DNA of 64,000 bases from Zasmidium citrigriseum. Taxonomy: Eukaryota > Ascomycota > Dothideomycetes > Mycosphaerellales > Mycosphaerellaceae. The stretch covers positions 124,001-188,000 of the forward strand of contig NHNW01000046.1 of NCBI GenBank assembly GCA_002786025.1. The letters run 5' to 3'. This document shows positions 1 to 28,653 of the stretch, in pieces. The notes under the pieces are model-generated. The model was given only the letters and a program-made list of their open reading frames with translations, did no database searches and was not told where the DNA came from. Every line of letters starts with the position of its first letter. The first letter of the stretch is position 1. The position numbers and the translations under genes are program-made.

Positions 1-78
1 AAAGCAATCGTATCGTGAATTTTTAACCTATAGCCTATGAAAAATAAATAAAATCTTTATTAAATCCCTAATTAATAA

Positions 79-102
79 TTTCCTAGCCTATAGGCTAATA
101 AA
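79..102. repeat. Outer-element border palindrome, copy 1
   Basis: A 24-bp imperfect palindrome with half-sites TTTCCTAGCCTA and TAGGCTAATAAA (two mismatched pairs). The same sequence recurs at 3425-3448 and, with a CG centre, at 7686-7709; an oppositely skewed copy is at 28630-28653. In the element's direction this copy lies just after the 3.3 kb segment X, so more element sequence may follow beyond the left edge. Confidence 0.7.
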
Positions 103-3424: not shown

Positions 3425-3448
3425 TTTCCTAGCCTATAGGCTAATAAA
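3425..3448. repeat. Outer-element border palindrome, copy 2
   Basis: Same 24-bp palindrome as at 79-102. In element direction it lies between the integrase region and segment X, matching the place of the inner element's palindrome at 18700-18722. Confidence 0.75.
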
Positions 3449-6400: not shown

Positions 6401-7685
6401 CCTATAATATCTATCTCTATTACGAGGAAGTAAGTTTTCCCCCTATTAATTATTAGCCCTACCCTCTCTATATCTACTAATACTTTATCTATCTATATAA
6501 TATACTTAATAATAAACCTTCGTATTCTAGGTTTAATCTCCTTACCCTTATAGTCTATCTTCGGCCCTTTAATAGGAATATTATCTACGAATAGTTTATA
6601 TCGATAAGAAATATAATTAAGAAGAATTATATCTATAATCCTATAGTACTAACCTATAGAATTCGTTACTCCCTAAGGAAGTATTATTATCCTATATATT
6701 CTAAGAGGTATAGAGAATCTAGTTAAATCCCTATAGTAGATATATAGGCCGAACTAATTATATCCTAAGAATAGATTAGTAAGGGTAAAGACTCTATATC
6801 TAGTAAAATCCTCGGAGAATCTATTAGTCTTAGGTAGTAAATACCTATCCTATATAGTAACTCGATTAATCTTAGTTACTATATTAATAAGCTAGTAGTT
6901 ATCCTAGGGCTACTTCTTCTTCTTTAGATCTATAACCTTCTTCTTATTTATATTCTTCTTTATAAGGAACTATAGGTTCTAGTAAGCTCCGTAATATAGC
7001 TTAATTACCCTATTCTTTAGCCTTTAGCGTAATATCTCCTTAATAATTGCCTTTAAACTCGGATATAGCTTAAATCTAGGATACTACTATAGTTTATACG
7101 GAATAGTAGCAATTAGCTAAGGTCGAGCAACTTCCGGTTTTACTCTCCTAATATAAGTAAAGTCCTACGCGAGAACCTTCTTCCTATTATAGAGTATCTC
7201 TATAAATAACTTCTACTCTCCCTCCTTTAGATCTATCCTAACCTTTAGATCTTTTAGCCTCTACTTAGTTAACCTACTTCCCCGCGCAATCTCTAAGAAC
7301 TTCTTAATTAGATACTTCCTATTAAATAGCCTAGTTCCCTCTAGTAACTTCGCTTCCTTCGCTAATATCTCTTTCTTCTAATAAATATTTACCTATAGCG
7401 AATAGCTCTTCGTTATAGATATATCCGTATCGATAGGTTGTATCTTATTAGCCTTCCTTTTATAGAGAGTAAAGGCTCTAGGAAAATCTAGTCTAAATAG
7501 CGAATATACTCCTAGGAACCTAGGTAATAACTATCCTTTCTTACGCTTCTCGGTATTCGTAATATTATTAATAAGTCCCTACCTATAAATCGTACTTAGT
7601 TAACGATCCTAGCTAAGAATACGATCCTCTAAAACCGATAGGAACGCGTAATATTAATTTGCCTTAGTAAACTTACCTCTAGGGA
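3449..7685 (-). pseudogene. pol: Outer-element reverse transcriptase / RNase H / integrase, RIP-destroyed
   Basis: Minus-strand translation shows a Ty3-type RT core around 6600-6540 reading LFVDNIPIKGPKIDY (the Y/F-x-D-D box, second D now N). An RNase H-like region follows around 6.1-5.9 kb with a VVVDT motif. The integrase core at about 5.2-4.75 kb contains DPIYIDRKG, EIILNGLKQY and YIEVRYRLILDIL. The second integrase catalytic Asp appears as Asn, a G-to-A change expected from RIP. Numerous stops interrupt the frame. The same motif series occurs in the inner element (FLDDISVKGPKTDY), so both belong to one retroelement group. The remnant is non-functional. Confidence 0.85.
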
Positions 7686-7709
7686 TTTCCTAGCCTACGG
7701 GCTAATAAA
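7686..7709. repeat. Outer-element border palindrome, copy 3
   Basis: Half-sites TTTCCTAGCCTA and CGGGCTAATAAA, which differ from copies 1 and 2 only at the centre. In element direction it separates gag-protease from RT, exactly where the inner element has its palindrome at 14618-14640. Confidence 0.75.
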
Positions 7710-9848
7710 CCCTATTATCTTCCTTATCCTCTAGATCTAGCTTAACTATATATCCCGTAACGATCTCTTTATCTTTATAAACTCTCGGAACCCCTTCTAC
7801 CTCCTATATAATATCCGGGTAGATAGAAGGCCTAATAAATCTAGCTATATATCCCCTTCTAATCCTCGCGCTAGTAAAGTTTCTACTACTAGTCTTCTTA
7901 AGTACTTCTTCTATCGTTTAGTATACTATTCGATTATTTCTAGCTAAGAAGGTTATAGTCTTACTATTCTTATTCGTAATAGTTCCCTCCTAGCTTCTAT
8001 TATTATAATTCTTCGTAAGAAGTCGAGTCTTTATAGTCTATAGCCTCCTAAGAATTAAAGGTATTCTAGGTTAATCCGTAATAAAGAAATCTATATAGTA
8101 GGTAACTCTAAAAACATCTACTAAGATATTCTTACTTACTCCCTTAAAAACCGTAATTCCTCTAAGCCCTTATATAGTTATGTTCGATATAGGCTATATA
8201 GGCAATCCTATATTTCTTAATACTATTTAACTTATTAAATATACCTTACTTCCCTTATTAATTAATCCTCTAAAGTAATACTTCTTACCTACTCCTAACT
8301 TTATAATTACCTATAGGCTTAGAACGAGAGTATATATCTACTTTACCGTAGAGAGGTTATATTCTTTATTAATTCTTCCCTTCTTCGTTCTAGTAGGTAG
8401 CGTAGGTAACTTACTATCGTATTCGATAAGTCGATAAGTTGTCTAGTTCGGAAGTTAATTACCTACCTTTATATATCTTCCTATCTATCCTCCCTATATA
8501 GAGAATCTACTTCTAATTACGACTACTTATTCCCTTTTAGCCTTCGCCTACTATTCTATTACGCCTATCCCTTATAAGATCTCTTCGGCTTCTTCGTAAT
8601 AAGTACTTTCCTCGAGAGGAATACCTAGTTCCACCTCCTTATCTAACTCCTATAGATACTTATATATAGCTTAGAAGTAGAATAAGCTCGACCCTTTTAT
8701 CGTTCCTATCTACTTTCTCTAATACGCTCTCTAGAATCTTAATACCTCCCTAAATGCTTCCGTATTCTAAATCCTCTAGTAAACTACTCGCTAGAAATCC
8801 TTACTATAGAGTAATAAATCCTTAATATTATAGCTACCTACCGAGATAGGTAGGCTTAATAGGAAGTCTATCTAGAAGAGATTAACCTTAGAGACCCCTT
8901 TTAGCTAATCCGTAGTAGCTTATTCCCTAAACCTATATTCCTTCCTATATCCTTTTAACCTAATAGTCTTCGGCTTCTTCTTATTTAGAGGATTAATAGG
9001 TCTCGGCCTAAGTTTAGGTTTAACCCTTAATTCTTTACTTAATCCTTCCGAGAATAAGATCCCCTTATTCTCTATTTCCTTATCTTTATCTCGATTACGC
9101 CCTTAAGTCTAAGATTAAAATTTAAGACTAAGACTAGGAAGTACCTTACTTCGAAGACTCTACTCTTAATACCTTATTATATTGCCGCCTTACTATATTA
9201 ATCCTTTCCCTCTCTTCCTCTATTACTTTATCTAACCTCTCCTTCTTAGCTTACTTCCTACGATTATTCTTAAGGATTACCTTCGGATAATTACCTAGCT
9301 TATTAACTCGATTCTCTCGCTAGTTCGGCTTTAATAGATTAATAGCCTTCTACTTCCCCTTATATAATAGTATCCTCGTAGGTATTATAGTCCTAATAGG
9401 TTCCCCTCTTCCTTTATCTATAGGAATCTTATTAATAGCTAAAACTCTTACTCCCTAATCTTTATACTATAAATCCTTAAGCGTAATAATAAACTCTTCC
9501 TTATCCGGGTAGCTATCCCTTTATAGAGAAGCTAAAGTTCCTCGTACCTAGGTATCCTTCGAAGATTCTATAATATTACTTATATCTCCCCTCTCCTATC
9601 CCTATTCCTTTAACTTATCTAGTATTAGGCTTCCGCTATACTAGAATACTCGCTTTCTAGTCTTACTTTCTAATATAGGAATAATATACTTTAGCTTTAG
9701 GTAGTTTATATCCTATATAAAGCGAATTACTTCCTTATTTAGACTATTAGGCCCTCTAGTATACTATCTTCCCTTCTCCTAATAGTATTACTTCGAATAC
9801 TCTAGGAAGCTATACTCGCTATATTCTCTAGTAAAATAATTTTTGTTA
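7710..9848 (-). pseudogene. gag-pro: Outer-element gag C-terminus and protease, RIP-destroyed
   Basis: Minus-strand translation continues the gag reading from 27070 across the inner insertion: the last part of the zinc knuckle (NYFTREY) is at the right end. A retropepsin-like active-site region reads GLINKGSKVYLIS at about 8275-8230. Allowing for RIP G-to-A changes (Asp to Asn, Glu to Lys) this matches the inner element's LIDEGSEGCIIS. Stops occur throughout, so the protein is lost. Confidence 0.75.
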
Positions 9849-9852
9849 CTAT
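9849..9852. repeat. Target-site duplication CTAT, left copy
   Basis: CTAT directly precedes the 5' LTR and is repeated at 27070-27073 directly after the 3' LTR. Removing one copy and the insert restores the reading frame and the CX2CX4HX4C spacing of the interrupted gag zinc knuckle. That supports a duplication of exactly 4 bp. Confidence 0.9.
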
Positions 9853-10210
9853 TATAGGCTAGCTAGCTAGCTTCTGCGGCAAATGCCGAGGCTGCTAGCG
9901 CCTACCTTCAACCTCCGAGCTACGAGCACCTTCATTATTATTACGACACCTGCTTTACACACACACGACTAGCTTCTTGTACATTATGCTACACAGATAG
10001 ATATAGTAAAATCCTGTACACTAAACTTCTTCTCTTCTTTCATAGCTTCCTCCGGAAGCACCTCTACATACACGAATACCTCTGTACATCCGAACCTACC
10101 AATGGAGCTATGTCACACCCTCTATTAAGATCTATCGCCTGTAACCCCTCTTTAGCTCCATTACCTACTTAGCGACTGTGGGTAGGTTGGTCTATAGGCG
10201 CCGGGTTATA
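9853..10210 (+). repeat. 5' LTR of inner element
   Basis: 358 bp, matching 26712-27069 end to end without gaps. I count 17 differences, all transitions. It starts TATAGG and ends GTTATA, as expected if an original TG...CA terminus had been RIPed to TA...TA. Near its start it holds an AGCTAGCTAGCT run and a small hairpin (CGGCA and TGCCG). Confidence 0.95.
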
Positions 10211-11358
10211 TTTTTAGTAGTTAGTACGAGGGTAGAAGACATACCCGTCTTCTTCCGACTTCCAACCTTCGAGCATTCGACAATGCGCCCTCGCGAAACC
10301 GCACTCCGACAGATTCGACATAAGCAAGAGCATTTACAAGAGCAACGCTAGCGTAGCTATATTAAGGAAAGATATAAGAACATAAGAAACACGATACACA
10401 CGACATTCGGTATATAGGAGCTTCGGCACGAACAACCCAGCACTATAGAACAATAGATACAATAGTTCGGCTACAGAAACAGGCTCGAGTCTGTAGTTAG
10501 TTAAACGAAATAGGCACACACGGAAAACCGGAGATTATATTATTAGGTGGACGCATCTAATAGGCGAAGCTCGAACATATACTACACGAACACTCGAAAC
10601 CTTAGGAAACTAGAAGGGCAACGCTATGCTTTACTACTCGGTGGAAGTAGGCATAGCGGAAACCCTAACAACTACTTCTCGCGAATACGACAACTGCCCT
10701 TAGCAACACGCTCTCCTTTATTAAAATTAGATACTATCTACGGATGGCCGAGATTACGCTCCGACTCAACTACCTTCGGACTATTGAGATTCGAAACCGC
10801 CACAGGATGAGGCATTTGGAAGAGTCGTTCTAGGCAGAGGCTTAGAAAGGGGTAACTACTCGTAAGGCTACGATCCCTAGAACAAGGTTTGTTACTCTAG
10901 ATCGAAGCCGCTAACTAAATCGCAGCTGCCTAATATGGCAATAGCTATTAGGCCTGTGCGCTTGGGCGAGGAAGCATTGATATGCAGCCTTACCTCCGGA
11001 CCTTGCTAAGAAGGACTACTATTAATTAGCACCTCTTACTTCTAGTAATAGCGAACTCGTTACTAGCACTACACCTACACTACAACTAGTACTGCCCTTG
11101 CACATTACTTTGTACTGCACATATCTGTATCCTTGCTTTCTATTACACACTTGCTGTTTAAACTGTTTGATTCATATCTACCTATCTATATCTACACCCT
11201 GTTACTATACTCGGCTTAAGGCTATGTCCTATTGTTACCCAAGTTGTAAAACCCTCACAAAAACATTGCTTCTGTCTGTTTTGATTAATAAGGACGCTTT
11301 CGTGTCCAATTTGTACCCCTCGTGTTACTGTATAAGTAACAAATCCTTACATCTTGCT
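10211..11358 (+). other. Leader of inner element, non-coding
   Basis: About 1.15 kb between the 5' LTR and the first palindrome. The primer-binding site should lie immediately after 10210, but the sequence there (TTTTTAGTAGTTAG) does not begin with TGG and I cannot assign a tRNA. TAG could be RIPed TGG. Two small open frames (87 codons at 10547-10810 and 121 codons at 11098-11463) have no recognisable features and are probably chance. Confidence 0.6.
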
Positions 11359-11381
11359 TTTATACCCCGCCGGGGTGCGAA
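11359..11381. repeat. Inner-element border palindrome 1 (before gag)
   Basis: One of seven copies of a 23-bp palindrome whose least-mutated form has 11-base arms TTCGCACCCCG and CGGGGTGCGAA around a single C. In this copy the left arm carries three RIP-type transitions (TTTATACCCCG) and the right arm is intact. It precedes the gag segment. Confidence 0.9.
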
Positions 11382-11479
11382 CGATCTACTACTAGGATTC
11401 CGACTACTAGCCCCTAGGACTAACTGCCTTCTGCCACATACTTTACTAGAGGAAGTAGTTTAAGTAGATCCAAGTCACC

Positions 11480-14400
11480 TCTTATAAGCAGCTCGCCGCT
11501 ACAAGAGTCTAGGTCGGGAGAAGAGTCTCCTATTAATTAACCTTTAAGATAGGAAGACCCTAACGCCAATCCTAAGTTTCGCAACATACTAGTAGACCTT
11601 AGTCCTTCTAAGCTAAAGGTATCTACTACCGACAGGTCTTCTAGCTCTAAAGAGGTTAAGACTCCTACCTCGGAATAGTCGCTAACTAGAGCGAGTGTAA
11701 GCACTACTTCTAGAGTCCCTACTCTACGCCCTTTACTTCTCAACCGCGGAAGATCTTATCGTTCCCAGATAGCTACTCCTGTTACTACCGCTAACGCTAA
11801 CAATAGTAATAGCGGAGGAAGCAGCTAGGCTACTAGGTCTTCTACTAGCGCTACTTAGTAGGCCGATCCTTAGGCTATTATCCAGCAACTAGCTTTAGTT
11901 CTCCCCAACTTGCGGCCTAAAATGCCTATGCTAGGCTCGAGTAAGAATCCTCTCTTCGATAGGAAGAACGTCTCTGCCTTTATCGATCGTTTCGACAATT
12001 TAATTACCGAGTACAACCCTAACTTAACCGATGTTAAGAAGTTGTCTCGCTTCCGACTAAACACCGATCCACTAACTCGCCCGCGTGTTACTCGAGTTCC
12101 AGGGTACGAAGATAGGGATTATAAGAAGTTCCGCATCGAGGTTGCTCGCGAATTTACCTAGACCGATGCCTTTATACTCCTTAGAACCCGCTAGTATCTG
12201 GAACAACTTGCCGGTACTAATCGTTCCATAGGAGATAACTTGTCCAGCTACTACCGCTAGTTTATTACTACGAGTAAGAAAATTAAGAAGGCAGACATGG
12301 AAGATAACTCTCGCACCCGACTGTTCCTCCAAGGACTTCCTAATTAGTTGTAGCGAAAGCTATATTAGAAGTTTAACCTACACCCCTTGCGCGAATACAG
12401 CTTCCGGGAATTCGACAAGATCTTCGACGAAGCTATACGCCTAATCGAAGGGAATGAAGGGTACAACCTTACCTAGAAGGAGACGACTATACAAATAAGG
12501 ACTTTGTAGAAGTCTGTCGAAGACAGACAACCTGTATTAGATGTTAGCTTGTCTTACATTTCGAATGTTACTCCGGCTTCTTATGATGCTAAGATTAGCT
12601 TACTTACCGATCGGCTTCATCGTATGGAAATCGCTATAATGTAACGCTAGTACCTAAGTAGGGTAATGCTACTTAACCCTTAAGCTACGGATTAGATAAG
12701 AAATATCTCCGGTAGGTATAATACTAGAGTCTTTGCTATACAGTAGAGGAAAGCTCCTCCAATAGGTCCTACTATAGCCGATAAGTGCTAGAACTACGGT
12801 AAGCCTAGTTACACTAGAGCTACCTATAAGATGTTTAAGATGTTCCTTAATACCGGTTACTACTATCTACTAGACAACAAGTAGTACTTGGGACCTAAGG
12901 GCAGCTATAACCCGAAGTCTATAACATGGCGATAGGACAGAACTAAGCTAAAGCTATATAGTATACTACTAGCTATTCGAATAGAATAGCCTACCGAGAA
13001 GATTGCCTTTACGGGAACCAATGCTAATAAGTTTCTAGCTAAATAGAGAAGTAATAATAGCTCTATTACTAGAAACTCCACTTTAACTCCTATAGCGCTA
13101 CCTACGTTATCGTCGGCCAAGGTCTACTTCGCCGGGGTTAGCGAATCTAAGGAACCGTATAATCCTACCTTCTAGTGTGTGCAACGCTCTAAGATCATCG
13201 AAGAAGCTACGGATGCCTTCGATTAGTATAAACATAGATCCTTCTATGTTACTCCTAAATACTTACTAGATAGAGGTTACTACTCCAATACTGCTACCCG
13301 CTTATAGGAGAAAGCAAGCTCGGCTCCGAAAACGCGATTTGCACCTACTAGAATTCTTAAGAACAAGGAACGTAAACAATCCTTAGTAGCTAAGACTCGG
13401 CAGCTTCGTGCTAATAACACCCCTATTACTAACCTTCCCGAATCCTAAGACTAACTTCGTAGACCGGAACTTTAGCCTAGGGTTAAGGATGTAACTAAGG
13501 ATTCTCCGACACAGACTTAGACCGTAGACTAGAACCACTCCTAACGAGACGAGTCTATAACAGACAGGGGTAATAATAAGTTTAAGGATACCGTACCTCT
13601 TAATGCGCTAGTTGCCGCTCGCCGAGGTGAGCCTAAGAGCAAAGCATTTCCACATTACGTCCGCGCCTATAGTAGTAGGAATAACAAGCTATTCTAGAGC
13701 AAACAGGTAATAAATGCCCCTCTTAATGTTACCGTTAGTAATATAATAACTTATAACGCTACCTTTGCGAAGTACTAGTTATAGAGAATCCTTAACAACT
13801 CCGAGTTCATAGATAAGCTTAAAAAGTATAGGGAGACACTACAGACGAGCGCTATAGTGCAAGTTGATTCACCTAACTAGCGTGTGTCTATAGCCGTTCA
13901 ACTTCCGCAAGAAGACATAAGATTCTCTAGACCGCCCGAGGCTAGTAAGCTATACAAGGATGGCGCCAAAATTGATCTTTCTAGCGTTACTACTAATTTA
14001 GTCTTAGCTCCCAGCCCCTAGGTAATAGCTACAGTTAGCTATATCGAGCACACAGTCCGTACTTTAATTGATGAAGGATCTGAAGGCTGCATTATAAGCT
14101 ACAAACTAGCTTCCTAGCTTAGGCTTCCTATTATAGGTAATATAAACATTAACATAAGCGGTACTAGCGGGCCCTACTAGTTTAGTAGAGTTACTCGCGC
14201 CCTAAAGATTATAGTACACGGTATTACCTTCTTCTAGGATTTCTTGGTCTCGGTTTCCCCATCCACACCCTTTATTCTAGGACGCCCCTAGTGCCGGAAG
14301 GTCCGGCTAACTAGCGTTAACTATAATAATAGTACATAGGAGGGAACTATTGCCGATAGACGAGGGAACTCCGTTCACTTTACGGGAATCTAAGCTACTA

Positions 14401-14610
14401 TAACTAGGTGTAAGCGGACGGACGATATCCTTCGTAGTCCTAGGCTAACCCTAAAATTGTAGGGGAATCGATACCTACGCCGGTCTCCCCTATCTTAGTA
14501 GGAGCATATACTATCTATTAGGATAGTATTTGTAATAGATCTTCGGATTCCTAAGGATCTTAGGATCCTCTAAAGGGCTTACGCCCCGAGATTGACGGAG
14601 AACCTAAGTT
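11480..14610 (+). pseudogene. gag-pro: Inner-element Gag and aspartic protease, RIP-inactivated
   Basis: Gag core reads around 11900-12480 (motifs FIDRFDNLITEYNP, SYYR*FITTSKKIKK, LFLQGLPN, FDKIFDEAIRLIEGNEG). A CCHC zinc knuckle is at 12783-12830, where RIP has turned Cys and His codons into Tyr (K-C-stop-N-Y-G-K-P-S-Y-T-R-A-T-Y). The protease active-site region is at about 14064-14100: LIDEGSEGCIIS, where most retropepsins have D-S/T-G. Many TAG stops sit at former Trp or Gln codons. Gag would form the particle and bind RNA, and the protease would cut the polyprotein. The segment is bounded by palindromes 1 and 2. Exact ends are uncertain. Confidence 0.85.
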
Positions 14611-14617
14611 TTTAACG

Positions 14618-14640
14618 TTTGCACCCTACCGGGGTACGAA
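14618..14640. repeat. Inner-element border palindrome 2 (gag-pro / RT)
   Basis: Copy TTTGCACCCTA, C, CGGGGTACGAA: same 23-bp unit with a few RIP-type transitions, flanked by CG on both sides. It lies between the protease and RT segments. Confidence 0.9.
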
Positions 14641-14644
14641 CGTA

Positions 14645-17600
14645 GGAATCAACTATTACGCTCCCGGATTGGATTCTCTACCTTCACAATCTTTAGCATC
14701 CGCGTTCGCGGTATTTAAAAAGGGGAGGGGAGTTGAAAATTCTTACCCTAACGTTACTGCCGCTATAGAATTACTACCTAATATCGCTAAAGCTAGATTT
14801 CTCCACATCGAGGATTAGGATAACGATAATGTTAAGGGTATTCTCCTCGCCGCAACCATTAACAAAGCGGCTCGAAGATTAAGGAGGCAAGCTTACACAC
14901 GCCCGCCTGTTAGTATAACTACCGATGTGTACACTATATATAAACGGAAAGCTAAGAAAGTTCGCCCTATTAAGGAAGATAGTTCGAGAACTAACGGATT
15001 AAAACCCGGTGGATCCCTCACCTAGCGAGACGATTGCCTAGCCTATGAAGTAATACTTCCCCCGGGAACTAGCAAATTCGATAGGAAATATCTAATTAAG
15101 AAATTTTCCAATATTCCTAAAGGAAGCCGGCTAACTTAGGAACGTCTAGATGCTATCGAAATTAGTATGGACCTACTCCCTCTAGAACTAGAAATGATCC
15201 ACGAGATGCTCTACAATAGAGAAGCTACTATAGCCTACAACTTTAAGCATTTAGGACGAATTCGGGAAGAAGTAATTAGACTACAGTACATTCGGACGAT
15301 ACCGCATACGCTATAGCAACACCCGGGCTTCCGTTTAAACCTATTACTTCGGTCTATAGTTGAAGGCATAATTCGCGAACGGCTTAAAGCGCAGACGATC
15401 GAATCCAGCCACTCGAGCTATCGGAATCCCTACTTCCTAGTTGGGAAGAAGTCCACCGGGCCGGAGAGGACCTATCGGCTTATTAATGCTACTATTGAGA
15501 TTAACAAGGTTACTATTCGGGATGCCAACTTGCCCCCTAACACTAACAGCTTCTCGGAAGACTTTGCTAGGTGCAAGATAGCGAGCTTAATCGACATCTT
15601 CTCTAGATATAATTAGGTTACTCTATATGAATCCTATAGAGACATTACGGCTTTCGACATACTACTTGGATTGTTCCGACAGACTACTCTTCCGTAAGGA
15701 GCTACAAACTTAGTTGCTTAGTTCGTGAGAGCTATTACTTAAGTGCTAATAGCCTATATCTCCTATCGAGCTCGGCCTTTTCTAGACGATATTAGCGTCA
15801 AGGGCCCGAAGACCGATTACAATAGGGAACATATTAAGCCTAGCCTACGGAGATTCGTCGTTAAACACATTATAGCAATCGATAAAGTCCTTACGGATCT
15901 AGAACGTGCCGGTTGTACTATAGCTAGGAAGAAGCTCCAACTTCTTTGCAAGAAGGTTAAGATTGTAGGCTATGTAACTAATAAGTTTAGTCGCTACCCT
16001 AATGTAGTACGAGTACGAAAGATACTAGAATAGCCCACCCCTACTTGCTAGAAGGATGTTAGGATCTAGATAGGACTAGTTGTATACTTCCGGATCTGGG
16101 TGCCTAAACTAGCTATTCGAGGAAAGCCGCTCTTCCAACTCCTACGGAAGGATGCGGAGTTTGTCTAGGAACAGAAGCATTAGGATGCTAAGGATACTAT
16201 TGCTCGTCTCCTCGTCGAAGCTCTAGCTTTAAAGTTAATCGACTACTCTAAGGAAGGAGGAGGTATCGTACTTGCAGTTGATGCTTCTAGCGAAGGTTTT
16301 AGAGCAGTCCTTATACAATGCGATCCGAAGAACCCTAAAGTTCGACATCTAGTCCAGTTCGAATCTAGCCTTTTTAGTCCTCCTAAGTAGAAGCATAATA
16401 CTAGAAAACGCGAATGCCTTAGAGTACTAAAAGCATTACGGAAACTAAAGCCATAGTTATTTAGTATCTACTTTATCTTAGAAGTAGATGCTAACACGCT
16501 AATACATTAGCTTAACAAGGCTTTATCGGATCTACCGAATGCAGCTGTTACTAGATAGATTGCTTAGATTCGACTATTTACCTTCGAAGTTCGACATGTG
16601 CCTAGGACCAAACATTCTACTCCTAACAGCCTGTCTCGCAAGCTAGCTACGGAACAAGATTACGAGGAGCTAGCAGAGGAAGAGGATGTTAAGGCTATAA
16701 TCGACGACGACTTCTACCTTACGTACCCGGTACAGCGAACTAATCCTCCGTAGGAGGATACTAGCATTCTTAATTACCCGGAGCATTATAATAAGACTTC
16801 CTAACAGCTAGCCTAGATTATAGCTAAACGCCGCCGCCCGCGAGGAATAATACGCTAGCGATACCGCACACTAGTATTGTAGTCGAGGAAGTTTGTAGTC
16901 TAAGGCGGTGTCTTATTCTAGTAACCTTACAAGTATGCTCTATTGTAGCGTGTTATAGACCAACCCTATATACAGGACTAGATCTTACATGCCTTCCACG
17001 AGAAGAATAGCTACCGTAGCACTAACATTATGTTTAACATAATCTAGCGGAGGTACTAGTAGGAAGGACTATATCTGTCTTGCTCCAAGCATTTCAAATT
17101 ATACGGTCCATACAACTACCGGAATAGACACCCTCGGCTAGCTAAACTCCGCCTAACTATATAGAACTTCGTTAGCGAAAGGTAGGCTACAGATCCTATC
17201 CATATTGATGCCTATAGGTGTCTACTCGTAGTAAGGGAGGCACTTAGTAGATGGATCGAAGTCAAGTATATTAACTATTCTTCTAAGAAAGTAACTGCCT
17301 GGATCATCGCCGACTAGCTATATGCCGATGTCTTCTGCCGATATAGAACCCCTCTAGAGATTATTCTTAACAATGCGAAGCAGCACGCTAGTAAAGTAGC
17401 TCGTCTACTTACTAGCCTAGGCATTAAGAGAGTTCGTATTTCCCTATACAATCCCTATTCGAATGCCTAAGTTAAAGTTAGACATCGGCTATTGCTAGAT
17501 GCCCTTACTAAACTTACGAGTAGTACCCTAACTAGATGGAGGAAATAGGTTCCTACTATTGCCTAGGCGGATCGAACGATAACTAATAGTCGAACTAGCT

Positions 17601-18690
17601 AATCCCCCTATGCTATTATGTTCGGGCATGAAGTAGTGCTGCCTATCGAAGTCGAATACCCTACTACTACTGTTCGAGATTAGGGAGCAGTTCGTAACCG
17701 CAGAACACTTCTATAGTATCGTACTAAATAACTCTAGCGAATAGAAGGATTACTTAAGGAACTTCAGGCTCGTTAGAAGCGGATGAAGGCTACTACGAAG
17801 CAATACTACGATAATCGCAATAAGGTTAGCTTCGAGGAATTCTAGCCTAGCGACACGGTTCTTATGTATCGTACCGAAGACAAGTACAATAAATCCGACA
17901 AGCTGTCCTTCCGCTAGAAAGGCCTATTTCGCATTAGGGAAAGGGACGTAACTAGCTTCTCTAAGCCGGAGCGACTATATTCCTATCTGCTAGAAGAACT
18001 AGATAGCACCGAGATGGATAGGACCTTTACGTACTATCTTCTTAAGAAGGTTATCTACCTATTCCGCACGATGGAAGAGAATACTAATAATCCTACCCCT
18101 AATGTCGCTAAAGCTAATTAGCCGCGACTGTTTAAGGCCGAAGATAAGGATAAACCGGAAGATAATAATCTTAAGGAAGAAGACCTACGATTTGCTAAGC
18201 TAGGTATCGCTTATCCGTAGTTAAGCCTCCTACGGCTAAGCTCTAAAGAAAGGGAAGGGTACTAGAGGTACGACTAGCTAGATTTTCTTCGAAAACTCTT
18301 GCTTGTTTACTCTGTTTGTTACATCGGCCTTGTAACTAAGGCCTATGTGCTTTTGGAAACCCATTACTCCCTAGATCGCGTGTAAGCCGAAGTTGCCGGA
18401 TTTGAAGTAGTTGCCTCTAAGTAGAGTACTACGGATACTTCGTCTTCGAGAAATGTAGGGTCTTTAGGGTAGACAGAGCGGCCGTCTTAGACGGGGTGCT
18501 CTTATGCGATGTAGGCTTTCGCTTCCGCGCTAGCTCGTAGTCCTAGTCGCCGTCTTTATCTTCCTCGATATGCTCCTTATAGATAGACGATAGGCTATAC
18601 GTATACGCCTTTCATCGCTATCTACGACATCTTTATTACATGCTAGACCTCCGCATGCCCCTAGTTAATCCTAATATCGACAATTCCCGT
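14645..18690 (+). pseudogene. pol: Inner-element reverse transcriptase / RNase H / integrase, RIP-inactivated
   Basis: RT: TYRLINATIEINKVTIRDANLPP at about 15470-15540 with the catalytic box FLDDISVKGPKTDY at 15779-15820. RNase H: VLAVDASSEGFRAVLIQC at about 16270-16320 and LEVDANTLIH near 16480. Integrase core: DPIHIDAYRCLLVVREALS near 17195-17250, then EIILNNAKQHASKVARLL near 17360. The second catalytic Asp is now Asn, and the Glu expected near 17475 appears as Lys in NA*VKVRHR; both are G-to-A changes. A C-terminal region near 17860-18080 (LMYRTEDKYNKSDKLSFR) follows. Stops, mostly TAG, interrupt all of it. The longest open remnant is 96 codons at 15743-16033, covering the RT box. Confidence 0.92.
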
Positions 18691-18699
18691 ACTTTTACG

Positions 18700-18722
18700 T
18701 TTATACCCTAGCGGGGTGCGAA
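18700..18722. repeat. Inner-element border palindrome 3 (integrase / ORF A)
   Basis: Copy TTTATACCCTA, G, CGGGGTGCGAA. The right arm is intact and the left is RIPed. It is flanked by CG on the left and CG after the right arm. Confidence 0.9.
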
Positions 18723-18724
18723 CG

Positions 18725-20000
18725 CCTAACAGTAGAGAACCGGCTATAATCCCGGTAACAGATAGATACTAGCCGTCCGCGAGCACTCCTAGAATTGCGA
18801 CTATAGCAATAAGTAAAGGGAAGGAGTAAGGAACATGAAGCGGTCCTCTAAGGCAGTTATAAGCCGCAACTTCTGCATTAGGAATAGCGCCAACCGTATA
18901 TAACTCCCTATATTCCTCGCAAACTTAGCCCACCTTCTACTACGCGCGACAACCGACACTTTCAAGCGACAACTTAATCTACGCCTCCGCCTGTCGGCAA
19001 AGAACGTCGTTACACTAGCTGCTACTTCCGAACTCTACGCTATTAAGCTATTCTGTACACCCGCTAAGATGTCGAATCTCGAGGCTATCGAGTCGGTTTT
19101 GGAAACTAAGTCTAAAGAGCTCTAACTAGAGCGCAACTACATCCTCAGCCTACCTATAAATAGCGGTTAAGAGCAAGAAGCTCGCCGATAGCGAGTCCGT
19201 AATATCGAGAACCTTATTAAACATCTAGAGTCGGACCGGGATTAGATACGCTCTACGCTAGTCGGCGAAGAGAACAGAATGTCGGATATTATAGACGCCT
19301 TTGTCCGTAGCTACCTCGCCGCTTACCTAGGAAGGACGGTAGTCCCAACCGCTATTACTAGCGATTACATAATCCGGGTAGCAGAGCCGAGACTACGAGC
19401 CGCCCGTCCACAGATTCAGATCTTCCGCCTTCTAGACGTAGGCGCTAGAGGATAGCGCGACGACGATCGAGGTCCTCGCTTTAACATCGCCGAGATCTAT
19501 ACTAATCTAGATTTGCTTTAACGAGATGTTGCTCTGTAGGAGCGCATCCTTAACGAGTATGCTATTATAGGAAATGCCCGCCTTCGCTAGGATGTTAATC
19601 TATAGCGAGAACTCGAGAACCGCTGCACCCATTACCCTCCTAGCTACTACGACTCTCGCCGCTCCATCTATTGTTTCGGCTATCGCAACGACACCGCTAG
19701 CCGCACTAACGGCACCACTTATAGTCCATAGCTTCCTGTCAATACTAACTTTATTACTGTTACTATCGATAGCGTTAATAGACTATTCCTAAACCCTCCG
19801 AACTAGTAAGCTACTTAGATCAATGCCTAAGTTCGTCGGCTTAATATGCAAGGAAGGAACACTCGCCGCGGCCGCGCCGGTCTAGATAGCCTACTTCGAT
19901 AAGAGAGGCCCGAGAACAATCGGGTTGCTAAGGATTAGAGTCGTGCCGTATAGGCCAATCGCCGCCGCCTTAAGCGCCTATAAGAATAGCATTATACGAT
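18725..20000 (+). pseudogene. ORF A of inner element, unknown paralogous protein
   Basis: Readable through RIP stops from about 19060: LETKSKEL*LERNYILSLP, RVRNIENLIKHLESDRD, then AEPRLRAARPQIQIFRLL, RFNIAEIYTNL and YYDSRRSIYCFG near 19640-19690. The same succession of motifs occurs in ORFs B and C, so the three are diverged tandem copies. A charged, probably helical N-terminal part is followed by an Arg-rich region. I know no family with these motifs. It lies between palindromes 3 and 4, after integrase, where most Ty3 elements have only the 3' LTR. Ends are approximate. Confidence 0.65.
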
Positions 20001-20254
20001 AAGATTGCGTCTCAAGTAAGTAGTATTGAAAGGGGTGTGTTAGGAATGGAAAAGGGGTTTAGCTAGGGAGAATTAGACGGAAGGATTAGGAGTTAGCTTG
20101 TAGTAATAGCTACTTCTTCTCCGCGAACCTTCTAGTTTAGAGCTCTTTAGTATAAAAACCTTTATCCCTCCTCTCAATCGCTGCTCCTACATCTATTGCC
20201 TACGTCTCGCACCTATGGGAGAAGTAATGTTAAGAATAGCTAGTTACTTTTACA

Positions 20255-20277
20255 ATCGCACCCCGCCGGGGTGTGAA
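20255..20277. repeat. Inner-element border palindrome 4 (ORF A / ORF B)
   Basis: Copy ATCGCACCCCG, C, CGGGGTGTGAA, one of the best preserved. It lies about 250 bp after the readable end of ORF A. Confidence 0.9.
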
Positions 20278-20279
20278 AG

Positions 20280-21580
20280 GTTAGAGCCGCCGCTACCCGG
20301 TACCTACGCCGCCTCTACGCTATTAGGTAATGCTCGCAGATTGTCGGTGCATCTAAAGTCGTTACTAGAGTAACTAGGTCCGGAACTAAAGGCTTCTAAT
20401 AGATTACATGTAGTAATTTCCTAATTGGGCCTAGCGGCTATCGCTAGTATAACTTCCCGCCGCTACTCGAATATTAACCTTCTCCGCGTCGCACTACGAC
20501 TCGCACCTTTTGCGACGGATCTAAGCCTTCTTCCTCTAAAGTCGCGAGAGCTTTATTAAAAGCTAAACGCCTATCGCACGAGGAACGCCCATACCGATAC
20601 CGCTAACATAAGCGACATCCGCGCTCTAAAAGAAGTCGTCCGCCTCGAGCATGCTAAGCTCCGTTAAGAGATAGAGTATCTATGCTCGAACGCCCATACT
20701 AGCCGCGGAAATCTTGCCTATATAGAAGCTACCTCGCGCTATGTCGGCGACATTTCTCGTACCCGCCGCCTACTAATAGATGTAGATAAGGAGCTAGACG
20801 ATCTACTACACGATAAGACTTAAGATAGCAATCGGATAATAAACGAGTAGTAGTAGACCTTCCTTAGTCGCTAGTATCGCCTACCCTCTACTACCGAGAG
20901 ACAGTAGCATTACGCCGATACGGTCGAGCCCTGCATCCTTACTACTCGGCCAAACATCTCCGTCGTCCGCCTACTACGTATAGGCGCACAGAACTAGAGA
21001 AACGGAGAACCTAACCCCGCCTTCAACCTTAACGAGATCTACCTGTCCCTTTAAGCGGGTTATTCTAATGCTTATCTACAAGCCTGTATTATTAATAAGT
21101 ATCGCGCGAACAGCGACTTCTAAGGACGCTAGACTCTTAGTATGCAGCAAGATCTAGAACGCCGCCGCACCTAGCCTAATCCTCGCGCCTTCGATAGTCG
21201 TCGGTCTATCTTCCGTCTCGGCACCCTACCTCTAGCGATACCGGCGCCTGGCACCTACTCGTTCCCTAGCTAGCCGTAGACGGATGTTCGCTAGAGAGTC
21301 CGCCGTAGCATAGTTATAAACTAGACGGAGTATAAAGCTAATCTCTCTCGTCGCTATACTAATCTGTAGCGTCGTCGTAAGGAAGTCGATCGTATAATAG
21401 GCCCCTAGCTAGTCTAGCATGTTCACATCTACCAACATGATAAAGCAACGCCGAATTGCTACTATAAGGTTATCCGCCTAGCCCGGGATAGGCACTCTAA
21501 CGCTTAAAGCTTAGGGAGGCATAGGTAACTTTAGGCCTAGGAATTAAGGATAGAGGCATGGACGGGATATATAGCAGCGG
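20280..21580 (+). pseudogene. ORF B of inner element, unknown paralogous protein
   Basis: Readable from about 20540 to 21590. Motifs: VVRLEHAKLR*EIEYLCS, LLIDVDKELDDLL, VEPCILTTRPNISVVRLL, AFNLNEIYLSL, then FDSRRSIFRLG near 21190-21230. The last three blocks align with ORF A (AEPRLRAARPQ..., YYDSRRSIYCFG) and ORF C (VEPRLARRRPR..., RDSRRLIYRLG) in the same order and at similar spacing. It is the longest of the three copies. Function unknown; stops are mainly TAG. Confidence 0.65.
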
Positions 21581-21872
21581 CTGTTTGCTACTTATATCGA
21601 GCCTCTAACTTCGAGTCCACTAGTAATATAGTTTACTTCTACCTTCTCCTCCTTTCCTTTATTATATCTATTTGTATTCCCGTTATCTATATAATACGGG
21701 CAGATTATGTTATATCCCCCCCTTTCTACCCTAGTCTAGCTTTATCGGTTCCCCACCTAGATAAGACAAGTTCCCTACCTTTGTCGGGGATCCTCCGAAG
21801 TGTGCTATCGATTCCTAAATGCAACTTCCGTAATAGCGCTATGTCGCTAGAGTAGCTTAGTACCTTCTACGA

Positions 21873-21895
21873 TTTACACCCTACCGGGGTGCGAA
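21873..21895. repeat. Inner-element border palindrome 5 (ORF B / ORF C)
   Basis: Copy TTTACACCCTA, C, CGGGGTGCGAA: right arm intact, left arm RIPed. Confidence 0.9.
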
Positions 21896-21899
21896 CGCA

Positions 21900-22870
21900 A
21901 TTAACGAATCCCTAGACGATCTATAATAACCCCGCTCGGCCAGAAGGCGTATTCTCTCTGTATACGCGCTACTTATATCTAAACGATGTAGACTATACCT
22001 TTCGCTATAGCCGCATTCGGGAAATTAATATTAGTTATCGAGACTAAATCTCTAGAGCTCTAGATGGAACGAAACTATATCCTCCGGTTGCCGTCTACCT
22101 CTCTTTTAGTATAGGAAACTCGCCGGTAGCGAGTACGCGAAATTAAGGATCTAATCGAATACTTAGAACGTAACCGGACTTAGCTACGCTATATTTAAGC
22201 TCGGGAAGAAGAAGCTACCTAGCAGTTAGCCTAACCGATTCCTACGGACTTTAGAGAACGATACCGAATCGATATAGTCGAACCACGCCTCGCCCGGCGT
22301 CGCCCTCGAACGCCTATTATCCGGCTTATATAGAGAGGCGCTAGGGATTAGCGCGATAATAATAGACACCTACGCTTTAACACCGATAAGATCGACGCCG
22401 AACTACAACTACTACAAGAAGAGATCGAGCTGTAGGAGACGATACTTACTAAGTATGCTACTATAGGTAATATGTAGAGGCGTTAGACAGTGAATCTATA
22501 ATAGGAGCTAGAGGATCGGCGAAGACACCCTACCCTTGGATCTCGAGATTCTCGCCGCTTAATCTATCGGCTCGGACATGCTAACGACTATACTAGACGA
22601 ACTCCTAGAACCGCTACTAGCCCACCCTTTATCGTCCGAACTGGCTCGCATATTCGATAAATCGATAGGCGTAAGATACTCCTTATTAATTTACCCGACC
22701 CGCAATTAGTGCTATTTTAGGCACTAGACCACCGATAGAGGGCTACGTTCCGAACAGCAGCTAGCTTAGATCCTCCTCTCCGACAACAACGCCTAGAGTT
22801 TAGCGCTATTCTAGATAATTAGATCTAAGTTCTTGTCCCTACTTAACCCCGTAGGTACTCCCGCTATAAA
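21900..22870 (+). pseudogene. ORF C of inner element, unknown paralogous protein
   Basis: Readable from about 22040: LETKSLEL*MERNYILRLP and RVREIKDLIEYLERNRT closely match ORF A. VEPRLARRRPRTPIIRLI, RFNTDKIDAELQLL and RDSRRLIYRLG (near 22550-22575) follow. It is the shortest of the three paralogs. A and C are closer to each other than to B in the N-terminal part. Function unknown. It is bounded by palindromes 5 and 6. Confidence 0.65.
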
Positions 22871-22988
22871 TAGGCATATACTAGGGGTGTTTAGAGGATT
22901 GCAGGGAAGGAGCTTGACAGGGTACCCATTTCGGGCTGAATTAGAACGCCTATGGTTGACTAATTAGCCTACGGATGTTACTTTCACG

Positions 22989-23011
22989 ATCGTACCCCGC
23001 CGGGGTACGAA
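22989..23011. repeat. Inner-element border palindrome 6 (ORF C / ORF D)
   Basis: Copy ATCGTACCCCG, C, CGGGGTACGAA: symmetrical changes in both arms keep base pairing at the sixth position, apart from the outermost base. Confidence 0.9.
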
Positions 23012-26000
23012 CGCCTAACCGCCCCACCCGGCTACCTATACGACTCTATAAGCTACGCATATATACGAGGACGATGCTGCTGTCGCCTATCTCTCTTAAG
23101 AACCGAACTAGACCCCTTCGCTTCCGGATTCACGATGCTAGCTCTCGATATGCCGCTATCCGATTAACTACTACATGTAGCACGTGTTGTAGCATAGCTA
23201 ACTAGTTACGAGGTATTAGAACACGTGGAACCTGCACGAGTAATTCAGAAGCGTAAATATTCACAGTTTGCTAAAGATGCCGCATGTAACTATAGCGGCT
23301 TAGCCCGCAAAGCCGGCTACCGCTATAGGTACTTAAGCCCCCTTCTGTTCCGCTAACCTCTTAACTTTAACAACACCGACAACACTACCGCCTTTGGCAC
23401 CTCGAACCTTCCGACTTCTTCGAGCTCTTCCTCTATTAATAGTTCCACCCTTACCGACTTTACCGAATACCTGCCGACAACCCTATTACCTTCTACCTAC
23501 TCCGACACTATAGCGCGCTCCGGAGGCAGAGCGCTAATGCCCGCCGCACTAACTGGCTCTAATCTAGCTAATAGTCTCGTAAAGCTAGGAGAGCTTAAGG
23601 TGTCGCAACTCCTTAGGTCCATAGACTACATTAGAGACTTCCGCGACTACTAATTCCCCTTAGTTACCGACGACTCCCTAAGCGTGCTTAACAAGAACTT
23701 GGATTAGCTTAGCGACTTCCTCAAGACTCTAAGCGACGAGAATAAGACCAACTTCACCAACTTTATCTACGTATGTGCTAACTACTTTATCGAGGGGCGG
23801 TCTGTCGGCATACTAGAAATAGTGGACTATATTAAGAAAGCTACCAATGTAGCGCCTAATCGTCGCAAATATAAGGCGCTAGACAAAGCATTAACACAGG
23901 GAGAAAAGGCTTATAATCGGTATATAGCATTAAGGAAGGCTATAGCTTCCTAGCTATCTTTGCCCCTTAAGCGTTACTTTATATAGTTCTTCCTCGACAT
24001 TAGCGCACCGCCTTAACGACAGAAGGAATTTACTACCTTCATCCTTAGTTATAAGGATTGGAAGGCAGTCGCTCCTCGCATTAGCAAGGCCTTTGTTTAG
24101 AGACTTATAGATCGCAAAGGCAAGGGTAGCCTAAGTAACAACTATCGGGTCGAGTAGACTAATCTGGATGCTATCGACGATAGCAAGAAGAAGTATCTTA
24201 TTAATGCTATCGATCTCAACTTAGCGGAAGTGCAAGACTAGCTAACGAAGAATAACCTCGGACTATACTCGGAAGATTAGTTCCTTTACCTAGTCGATCC
24301 TCGTGTCTAGGAAGAGTTATAGACACCCGCACCTAATACTAGCTCCTTAAATTAGAGTAAGTAGCGAGGACCTCCTCCTGCTAGCGGCCGTCCTCGAACT
24401 AATACTAACCCTACTCCTCCTTCGATCTAGGAGAAAGCCGCTCCACCTTAACAAGGTCCTACTAGAAACCTACGCCCTCGCACGAAGCTACCGCCTTTAA
24501 ACTTAGGACAGGGTTAGAATCCTCCTCGGCCTAGTTACTAGCGCTCTGCATCTAATGCCTTGCCTAACTGTCCGAAGAGCAACCCTACTTCTAGCTAAGT
24601 TACGCCTACGTAACAATTACCTACTCCTCCTCGCTCTAGTAGCTACAGCCGAACTAACTCTAGTCTTCCTCGTACTAGATTAGGAAACCTTCCCCGATCT
24701 AGCTCTAGCAACTTCTCTCGTCCTGCCTCTAGCACCTTCGGCAACTCCCCTACGGCATCTAATTATAGCGGCACATTACTGCCTAACAATAAGAAGTCTT
24801 AGATCTATAACAAGTGCCTAGGATTCGTGGATGCTACCCTAATCGCTTAGATTAATTATGCTAACAAGAACAAGCCGAAGTTTACTAATAATCAAGTCCG
24901 GCAGTATCTTAAGGATTATAACGAGAACGGTAAGCGCTAACACGCGAGCCCGCTCTACTACGATTACTTGCGGCTATTTATAAGTAGAATCCTAGGAATG
25001 CTAAACCGACAAGGTGACTACGCCGCTTTAACAAGCAAGGTTAGAGCCATAGTTACTACTAAAGACAATCTTAACAGGTTCCGCCGCTAGAACCCTAACT
25101 AGTTCGATGCACTTTACCGCCCCAACGTCCCTTCCAATACCCTCGGTCCCTATCGCTTCATAGCCTAAACATACAACATGCCTACGAGCTGGAAGATTCC
25201 CTTTCCAAACTTAGCCCTAGCTATATCGTATATAGTAGGCGAACTAAGCAAGGACAACTAGGAGAAGAACGGCAACCTTACCTTAAAAGGCCTCTTCAAC
25301 TAGTAGGAGAGTCCCTTCTACGCTAAGAACCCTAGAAACAATCCAGCCTTAGCTAGGAACACAATCTACAACGTTGCTATAGATAAGGTGCGGATATATC
25401 GATAGCACTAGCGCTTGATTCGAGAGAAGCACAACCTAGGATAGGGACGCACTATAGTTCATGGATTAATTTAGTAGTTAATAAGGACTAACCCTATCTA
25501 CTACCTCCTCTATATACTACTACGCCCGAACTCTTGCCCCACCCTTATGTTATACTCCTACTATATTAAGGATTAATATAGGGCTAGTAGTACCAAGGAG
25601 AGCAACATAGGAGCTTAAGCCTTCCGCCACTTAGACTTTAATATCGAGCATATACATACGCCTAAGGGTGGGCAGAATATAATATAGGGCTCGCTTACTC
25701 TTCTAGCCGAAGATGCTAGTAACTGCACTATTATTATTCCTGGCATATACAAGCGTAAGAAGTAGGATCCTTAGGTAAAGTTACTTAAGGACCGCCGAGG
25801 ACCACAATCTAAAGCTAAGATCGAAACTATCGACAAGAAGATGTAGACACCTAAAGACGCCAAGAAGTACGACACTAACTAGAAGCCTATTCCATGCGGC
25901 AAGCTCGATGTTCGAATTTCTATACCTTCTTTACTACACGGTGCCTAAAAGCAAACTAAGGAGCGAATCAACTTGTTCCCCTAGCTCGTTAAGGTAGACC

Positions 26001-26551
26001 CCTAGGGAGAAGTACTTGAGATTCCCGGTAGTAGCAGCTAGACTAATCTAAATGCGTCTTACCGCGATCTCGTGGCTCTAAAGGCAACACCTTCTAGATT
26101 CGCTAACATCTTCGGCAAGATCCCCTTCCGCTTTCCGGCTACGATTAAGATAGATTCAACTTAGCCTATTAGGGATGCGTTAATTGCTTAGCGTCGGTAG
26201 TCCGATCCGATAGTTATTAATAACTAGTATAAGATGTGCCGTATGTTGTAGGAGTACTATAACGCTAGACCGAACAACGCCAACTCTAGGTAGTTAATCT
26301 AGCTCCGTAAGTATCGTACTACGGCCGCGAACGAATTCCATAAGAAGTAGGCGGTCGTTCAGGGAATAGAGAAGAAGGCCTTCGGCAATAACTCCTACTT
26401 TAACAACAACAGGGACTTTAGTAGGTTGCCGTCTGCTTTCGAGGCACCTATTCCTAAACTCCTAGAAGGCGAGGAGTTGTCTATCTTAGAAGGCAATTTT
26501 ATTAACGACGATAGTGTAGCTGTGGATAAGGACGGGAATGTGCTAGAGTAA
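23012..26551 (+). pseudogene. ORF D of inner element, large protein of unknown function
   Basis: A single frame can be followed, through TAG stops, from about 23370 to a TAA at 26549-26551. The N-terminal third (about 23.4-24.3 kb) looks globular and mostly helical (NFTNFIYVCANYFIEGRSVG, KYKALDKALTQGEKAYNRYI). The middle (about 24.35-24.8 kb) is a Pro/Ser/Arg-rich, probably disordered linker. The C-terminal part (about 24.8-26.5 kb) is again globular (KIPFPNLALAISYIVGELSK near 25195). I recognise no domain. Palindrome 7 begins 11 bp after the stop. By size and place it is the counterpart of segment X in the outer element. Confidence 0.65.
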
Positions 26552-26562
26552 GCTCTTTGTCG

Positions 26563-26585
26563 TTCGCACCCCGCTAGGGTGTAAA
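26563..26585. repeat. Inner-element border palindrome 7 (after ORF D)
   Basis: Copy TTCGCACCCCG, C, TAGGGTGTAAA: left arm fully intact and right arm RIPed. The flanks extend the symmetry by CG. It lies just after the ORF D stop and is the last copy before the 3' LTR. Confidence 0.9.
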
Positions 26586-26697
26586 CGCTATAGATAGTGC
26601 TATAGGTTAAGGCTTCTAACTAATGTTTTCCTTTGTTCTATAATAGATTGCGTTTAATTTCTAGGCATGAAGGTGTAAGTCTATAGGTTAGACTTAT

Positions 26698-26710
26698 AGC
26701 AAGGGAGGGA
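26698..26710 (+). other. Polypurine tract of inner element
   Basis: AGCAAGGGAGGGA ends directly before the 3' LTR (26712). A purine run at this place is the usual primer for plus-strand DNA synthesis in LTR retroelements. Confidence 0.75.
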
Positions 26711-26711
26711 A

Positions 26712-27069
26712 TATAGGCTAGCTAGCTAGCTTCTGCGGCAAATGCCGAGGCTGCTAGCGCCTACCTTCAACCTCCGAGCTACGAGCACCTTTATTATTAT
26801 TACGACACCTACTTTATATACACACGACTAGCTTCTTGTACATTATGCTACACAGATAGATACAGTAAAATCCTATACACCAAACTTCTTCTCTTCTTTC
26901 ATAGCTTCCTCTGGAAGCACCTCTGCATACACGAATACCTCCGTACATCCGAACCTACTAATAGAGCTATGTTACACCCTCTATCAAGATCTATCGCCTG
27001 TAACCCCTCTTTAGCTCCATTACCTACTTAGCGACTATAGGTGGGTTGGTCTATAGGCGCCGGGTTATA
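26712..27069 (+). repeat. 3' LTR of inner element
   Basis: 358 bp, partner of 9853-10210; differences are transitions only. It is followed by the CTAT target duplication and then outer-element gag on the minus strand. Confidence 0.95.
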
Positions 27070-28629: not shown

Positions 28630-28653
28630 TTTCTTAGCTTATAGGCTAGGAAA
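28630..28653. repeat. Outer-element border palindrome, copy 4 (before gag)
   Basis: TTTCTTAGCTTA and TAGGCTAGGAAA: same unit as 79-102, 3425-3448 and 7686-7709, but with the other half-site better preserved. In element direction it lies just upstream of gag, as palindrome 1 does in the inner element. Confidence 0.7.

Follow-up and report, generated by a model that had tools for sequence, protein, structure and literature searches.

LTR retroelements (LTR, long terminal repeat) are usually assumed to express one or two polyproteins. The window analysed here, a stretch of 64,000 nucleotides from the ascomycete Zasmidium citrigriseum (contig NHNW01000046.1, positions 124,001 to 188,000), holds a Ty3/Gypsy-like element, F1, with six separate genes (gag-pro, pol, A, B, C and D), and a 23-bp palindrome stands before the first gene, at each border between genes and after the last. 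Which role can such a repeated mark have in a retroelement? The window belongs to a 44.4-Mb genome assembly of 148 contigs, the repeats of which carry strong signatures of repeat-induced point mutation (RIP), and the same genome contains three related families, F2, F3 and F4. From a comparison of their sequences we consider it quite possible, if short of probable, that the palindrome is the gene-border punctuation of a multi-gene Ty3/Gypsy-like LTR lineage and acts as a transcribed hairpin that gives each gene its own mRNA.

Palindromes at the gene borders of four families

A sequence-only reading of the window had located seven copies of the palindrome in F1 and had described them as separating gag-pro, pol, A, B, C and D. 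Both statements were borne out. The seven copies (P1 to P7, Table 1) differ from the ideal 23-mer at 2-5 positions; the closest other candidate on the plus strand of the 64-kb window has 6 mismatches, and sites with up to 5, seven in F1, were absent from 50 Markov-1 simulations of the element. At up to 3 mismatches the window holds three sites and 100 dinucleotide shuffles hold none; RIP-tolerant scans of F1 in the window returned P1 to P7 only. P1 lies 1148 nt downstream of the 5' LTR end, the gag-pro stop is found 2 nt before P2 and the D stop 11 nt before P7. P3, however, is not at the edge of an open reading frame (ORF) but within a spacer, with the pol stop 422 nt upstream and the A start 346 nt downstream.

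The arrangement recurs in the genome. A 1.4-kb pol query found 37 places, 24 of them at 85-100%, 6 at 69-72% and 7 with a weaker match. In the seven further full-length F1 copies that were fetched (L005-L018), every one of the seven sites is retained in order, with border-specific differences. F2 (three copies, L019-L024) has its LTRs and gag-pol in common with F1 and differs in its 3' half; its site core measures 22 bp at P1 and P2 and 23 bp at the other three sites, with different outer pairs. F3 (L025, L026 and others) consists of gag-pro, pol, B, C and D and has a site at each border, the one after D being observed in five other copies. If the borders before, between and after the genes are counted, a site is present at 7/7 in F1, 5/6 in F2 and 6/6 in F3. 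Conservation of the palindrome across copies and families, for which the sequence-only reading had proposed an alignment, is thus found at 18 of 19 borders and fails at one border of F2. The claim that no copy lies inside a coding segment stands for strong sites, of which none was found within any gene of the scanned elements; two weak pattern matches inside F3 genes, with two substitutions each, were taken for chance, and the RIP-damaged P2 of F2 was exempt from the verdict on ORFs that run through a palindrome.

The protein P0082, used as query, found gene D in more families, among them F4 (C60, L087 and L088), which has gag-pro, pol and D and 441-bp LTRs at 96.1%. Its four sites lie before gag-pro, between gag-pro and pol, between pol and D and after D, and their arms read TTTCCTAGCCC or close variants in place of TTCGCACCCC; the sequence of the palindrome is family-specific. 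With F4 included, 22 of 23 borders carry one site, and in F1, F3 and F4 the sites outnumber the genes by one. The F4 pattern occurs 52 times per strand in the genome (control 0 and 1). F4-type spacings of 3716, 4261 and 3346 recur among the matches listed, a few being shifted (4458, 3642, 3319), and most F4-type genomic sites were assigned by spacing only, among 100 matches listed. One F4-type element is present in the window itself: decayed, older and strongly RIP-damaged, it surrounds F1 on the minus strand (1-9852 and 27070-about 29000), F1 being inserted between its first and second sites.

As far as was looked, the palindrome is restricted to these elements. A RIP-tolerant pattern gave 121 forward and 133 reverse matches in the genome (control 0 and 0), of which at least 100 places were located; most sites are probably counted twice in these figures because a mismatch at the centre was allowed. 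All 60 further sites that were fetched with about 150 bp on each side sit in such elements, at borders. Both flanks match one F1, F2 or F3 border in 55 of them, and the remaining five (L029, L050, L056, L060, L065) represent the F3 site after D, where the palindrome is flanked by the end of F3 D and, opposite, by sequence resembling the stretch in front of the F2 3' LTR. For the 13-bp half-site the genome has 23 matches, each of them at such a site (control 0). The repeated separator at gene borders is thereby upheld (60/60 and 23/23), and the search for copies elsewhere, by which it was to be checked, found none unrelated to ORF borders among the sites fetched and the half-site matches. The exact 23-mer had no match in contigs of IMG/VR or GTDB, which says little on fungi because these collections are viral and prokaryotic; a pol profile had no match in IMG/VR.

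Change and pairing of the arms

At P3 (pol/A) and P6 (C/D) the palindrome is retained although no alignment of the 90-nt flanks is possible from one family to another (z -0.3 to 2.7), while the flanks of P1 and P2 are alignable in most between-family comparisons. Pairing reaches beyond the arms of the 23-mer, to about 12 pairs. We compared 124 site rows in 17 border classes, omitting identical rows with identical flank, candidates whose flanks match no border and, for want of a reference flank, the five F3 sites after D. Immediately beyond the ten-base arm, the first pair is complementary in 14 of the 17 classes and the second in 12; more distant pairs are so in 3-5 classes, approximately as by chance. 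Complementary outer pairs are G-C and C-G in F1, T-A and A-T in F2, and G-C and (in two classes) A-T in F3. From the F1 to the F4 arms, alignment pair 13-23 changes from C-G to G-C and pair 11-25 from C-G to U-A or U.G, and outer pairs also change. Within F4 the outer flanks vary by site yet are mostly complementary (GGG/TCCC at P2, CCA/TGG at P3), the flank next to the core being A-U or G.U. The centre of the palindrome is variable and comprises 2-3 nt.

Covariation was scored on 21 rows of F1-F4, which were picked by hand, mostly as the least RIP-damaged copy per border, each row being one observed copy and no consensus. This choice favours paired cells, and the shuffle counts are not probabilities because the rows are related and chosen, one per border. 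Paired cells amount to 83.9%, compared with 32.6-48.0% when the arms are slid by 1-3 columns. Two-sided changes occur in 9 of 13 pairs, a value reached by 8 of 500 shuffles; the 34 cells with two-sided changes (17.2 in shuffles) and the covariation score of 0.330 (0.181 in shuffles) were reached by none of 500. The score of the 17 F1-F3 rows alone is also above every shuffle. Mirrored changes keep the pairing on the rows that include F4; on F1-F3 alone the result is mixed, as detailed below. The proposal that the RNA be folded led to hairpins for the ten sites chosen, at -6.1 to -20.8 kcal/mol without a shuffle control.

At the fourth arm pair, 17 of the 21 rows are non-Watson-Crick (G.U, U.G, A.C or C.A) and 4 are Watson-Crick. 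The outer CpG is intact in a single arm in 102 of the 124 rows, in both arms in 16 and in neither in 6; the arm that keeps it is mostly fixed by border, the inner CpG lacks this one-arm exclusion and the CpA site shows the opposite pattern. Selection for one intact arm was considered from this pattern and rejected. As the equivalent position in the stem of the four F4 sites is also a wobble or mismatch, we interpret the pattern as a pair that is habitually non-Watson-Crick. The assumption that all copies were identical when the element was active has to be given up: besides the one-armed outer CpG, all 22 merged rows for P4 and P6 have A as base 1 of the arm. The differences among copies are not exclusively RIP-type either, as base 1, some centres and the outer flanks changed otherwise.

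Two further explanations were discarded. One was long duplicated segments as origin of all sites: when 90-nt flanks are compared between F1 borders, most show no relation (z up to 3.1), so that descent of the sites from a single long duplicated segment can be dismissed. Stretches that are shared and include the site measure 65 bp (P4/P6), 41 bp (P3/P6) and 35 bp (P3/P5) by self-BLAST. Genes were nevertheless duplicated, A, B and C being paralogues. A role at the peptide level, as protease sites or 2A-like peptides, was rejected because the frame of the palindrome varies by border and a regular expression for the palindrome peptides in three frames matched 0 of 75 pol relatives.

Possible functions of the palindrome

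We assume that the transcript would form a hairpin of 10-14 bp at each border, that an element-matched factor would recognise this hairpin and that the RNA would be cut or ended there to give separate mRNAs. A eukaryotic ribosome hardly reaches the third to sixth genes of one RNA, so that separate mRNAs would be needed for these genes. The presence of a site in front of the first gene, at the internal borders and behind the last gene suits a mark that ends or cuts transcripts, and the number of sites per number of genes (7/6 in F1, 6/5 in F3, 4/3 in F4) speaks for it as well. So do the pairing with its mirrored changes, the folded hairpins and the TAG that the least-stopped gag-pro frame of F4 meets within the palindrome. 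The complementary flanks of F4 that vary by site, together with the usual wobble position, suit RNA. Recognition by an element-encoded protein, be it on RNA or on DNA, would agree with arms that barely vary in a family and with a site that differs by family in one and the same genome.

A number of observations weigh against punctuation by a hairpin. The ten-base arms hardly change between F1, F2 and F3 or from site to site in a family, which exceeds what a hairpin recognised by shape only would need, and the outer pairs of F1-F3 mostly track family and not site. Pair types in the 21 rows are not above shuffles (200/500 reach them); in the 17 F1-F3 rows five pairs show two-sided changes, reached by 394 of 500 shuffles, and pair types were reached by 462. 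Site-to-gene distances vary widely, the copies are RIP-damaged, and no RNA-processing enzyme was recognised among the element genes. No site was found between A and the second A-like gene of F2, and the fetched C148 copy of F4 has 3 of its 4 sites visible.

The main rival, which we regard as rather unlikely, is a DNA site for a dimeric, sequence-specific protein of the element (D, or A, B or C) that would serve as promoter element, boundary or anti-silencing site in the manner of VANC proteins and their motifs; its location in spacers would follow from coding sequence leaving no room. Such a site fits with arms that scarcely vary in a family but are unlike in F1-F3 and F4, and a site specific to a family, in a genome that harbours all of them, points to a factor that is equally specific. 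In its C-terminal part D is about 34% identical between F1 and F2, compared with about 83-88% for gag-pol DNA, neither site nor 13-bp half-site was seen outside the elements, and the sites are CpG-rich (14.8 versus 5.67 per 100 bp). VANC proteins, as outlined in PMC5735166, bind short non-coding motifs and evolve with them. A protein site would however not be expected to have differing self-complementary outer flanks within one F4 element, the two half-sites of the palindrome are usually unlike at the fourth pair, the sites are single and not in dense arrays, and no DNA-binding domain was recognised in A-D or P0082. Among the options offered by the sequence-only reading, the RNA hairpin and the DNA site for a protein both stand, and the recombination site is weakened: no fused border is present in the 60 fetched sites, and border-to-border recombination was rejected on this ground.

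Pairing between any two borders, which would lead to template switching in reverse transcription or to joining of transcripts, as with the transcription-regulating sequences of coronaviruses, appears improbable to us. It would agree with sites that are alike within a family and changed together between families, and with the presence of a single site in the leader and of another in front of almost each later gene; the 0/60 fused borders and the seven further full F1 copies with seven borders in order argue against it. Very improbable is a relic without present function, a short palindrome that spread and was homogenised within elements like those of fungal mitochondria, where small palindromes exist and many are considered mobile (PMC7218506). 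A relic would hardly occupy the same borders in four families, one per border, persist in the unalignable spacers at P3 and P6, show mirrored changes and be seen nowhere outside the elements.

Hairpin punctuation can be extended to a wider proposal, which we hold to be somewhat unlikely as a whole: the LTR lineage would express its three to six genes in the manner of an operon, with a hairpin specific to the element as punctuation and one of the element's own gene products to recognise this hairpin, and the recognition code would have changed at least once on both arms without leaving its positions at the gag-pro, pol and end-of-D borders. To our knowledge, operon-like hairpin punctuation is not among the expression modes of retroelements. 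A mark at nearly every border in four families indicates that this lineage expresses or organises its genes otherwise than by one or two polyproteins. The 27-bp object is testable between two reporters, and the mirrored change between families offers a natural experiment on the co-evolution of site and factor.

Genes of the elements and known systems

Table 1. Features of the window: F1 with its palindromes, and the palindromes of the surrounding F4-type element
Feature	Position	Strand	Basis
5' LTR of F1 (358 bp)	9853..10210	+	self-BLAST
P1, palindrome before gag-pro	11359..11381	+	mismatch and RIP-tolerant scans
gag-pro, RIP-broken; TAA end 2 nt 5' of P2	11382..14615	+	stops and comparison with F2 and F3; start is bound of segment only
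P2, palindrome at gag-pro/pol border	14618..14640	+	mismatch and RIP-tolerant scans
pol (RT, RNase H; integrase region by alignment), RIP-broken	14641..18277	+	Pfam and alignment to P0007; 5' bound is segment edge
P3, palindrome at pol/A border	18700..18722	+	mismatch and RIP-tolerant scans
Gene A, RIP-broken; ATG at 19069, end approximate	19069..19983	+	73% amino acid identity to F2 A over 304 aa; frame test
P4, palindrome at A/B border	20255..20277	+	mismatch and RIP-tolerant scans
Gene B, paralogue of A, RIP-broken; ends approximate	20402..21409	+	51% to F3 B; frame test
P5, palindrome at B/C border	21873..21895	+	mismatch and RIP-tolerant scans
Gene C, paralogue of A, RIP-broken; ends approximate	22010..22811	+	48% to F3 C, 40% to A
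P6, palindrome at C/D border	22989..23011	+	mismatch and RIP-tolerant scans
Gene D, RIP-broken; start uncertain	23012..26551	+	homologue P0082
P7, palindrome after D, before 3' LTR	26563..26585	+	mismatch and RIP-tolerant scans
3' LTR of F1	26712..27069	+	self-BLAST
F4-type palindrome after D	79..102	-	F4 comparison and pattern
F4-type palindrome at pol/D border	3425..3448	-	F4 comparison and pattern
F4-type palindrome at gag-pro/pol border	7686..7709	-	F4 comparison and pattern
F4-type palindrome before gag-pro, separated by F1 insertion	28630..28653	-	2 mismatches to pattern

F1 spans 9853 to 27069. Its two LTRs are 95.25% identical by self-BLAST, all 17 differences being transitions, and the flanks fit a target-site duplication of 4-5 bp (CTAT or ACTAT, the exact length being unsure). 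For the coding frames, the frame with the fewest stops was compared with the frame best conserved against the related families; both agree for gag-pro, pol, B and D and differ for A and C, where conservation was followed. RVT_1, RT_RNaseH and RT_RNaseH_2 exceed the Pfam cut-offs in F1 pol, so that reverse transcriptase (RT) and RNase H are present. Asp_protease_2 matches near the gag-pro end with E 0.011, below the curated Pfam cut-off. An integrase domain was not found by Pfam in the damaged F1 copy; pol aligns with P0007, which carries PF17921, at 49% identity over 79% of the query, up to P0007 residue 2059. P0007, the best-scoring pol relative, has gag-pro-pol as a single ORF of 2105 aa, and further relatives include named fungal proteins of Penicillium, Pyrenophora and Parastagonospora. 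The pol stop at 18275-18277 is deduced from where P0007 and P0008 end.

A, B and C, of about 300 aa each, are diverged paralogues of one protein without a recognised family. Genes of this type number three in F1, two in F2 and two in F3, and tblastn found none in F4. No Pfam family was recognised for A-D, no NCBIfam family for A-C and P0082, and Rfam gave no match over window positions 8000-29000.

Some features of single copies may be added. At L007 and L008 (C140) one F1 copy is inserted within another, at the equivalent of window 21687-21694. F2 looks chimeric, with LTRs and gag-pol near F1 and strongly diverged A-like genes and D. In L087 (4653-4676) the least-stopped frames of F4 gag-pro and pol are identical, and TAG codons lie within the intervening palindrome. 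Of the four pieces fetched from two F4 copies (L087-L091), three have a weak RIP signature (ratio 0.93-1.11) and the fourth, L088, has a ratio of 0.59; other copies of the same genome are RIP-saturated (0.04-0.07).

D is the only gene besides gag-pro and pol that is present in all four families, and we infer that it is the first candidate for the factor recognising the palindrome. P0082 is the one homologue of D found in the protein collection; D as a single-sequence query of that collection gave no match, nor did a search of the PDB by sequence. FRHID and LPHGA motifs in P0082, picked out by eye, were taken as an HxD...H signature, and PhyH matched a P0082 fragment with E 0.13, below the cut-off. 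DUF3659, and no other family, was matched by 4 of 12 D copies (best E 0.051); the AlphaFold2 model of P0082 has a pLDDT of 29.5. The C-terminal part of D may thus be a 2-oxoglutarate (2OG)-Fe(II) dioxygenase carried by LTR retrotransposons of four families, and if so it would bear on the coexistence of retroelements with RIP and cytosine methylation. A possible transposon-encoded dioxygenase of this kind recalls the TET/JBP-bearing DNA transposons of fungi; D has no TET/JBP match, P0082 being without Pfam family at E up to 5, at which a remote member could escape.

A sequence-conserved hairpin at mRNA ends is known from the 3' stem-loop of histone mRNAs, which has another sequence and belongs to other genes and serves here as an analogy only. 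Among the open-access titles and abstract openings listed by literature searches, none describes palindromes at the gene borders of LTR elements, and the word palindrome is absent from the main text of a survey of fungal LTR elements (PMC3248453). The present elements share LTRs, RT and RNase H, and by weak match or alignment protease and integrase regions, with fungal Ty3/Gypsy elements (Metaviridae), and differ in their three to six separate genes, the palindrome at nearly each border and a gene D without Pfam family. The GC-rich palindromes in mitochondria of Neurospora and other fungi are likewise short and adjoin genes, and transcript processing is among the roles proposed for mitochondrial palindromic repeats (PMC7218506); they are scattered, whereas here a retroelement lineage of the genome assembly has one palindrome per border with a family-specific sequence. 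Among the nearest analogues are the VANC/motif systems of VANDAL DNA transposons in Arabidopsis (outlined in PMC5735166 and PMC10398659), in which a short non-coding motif also differs between families of one genome. In the accessible part of PMC5735166 the VANDAL motifs form dense arrays of the same orientation and are not described as palindromic gene separators, whereas the elements of Z. citrigriseum have one site per border.

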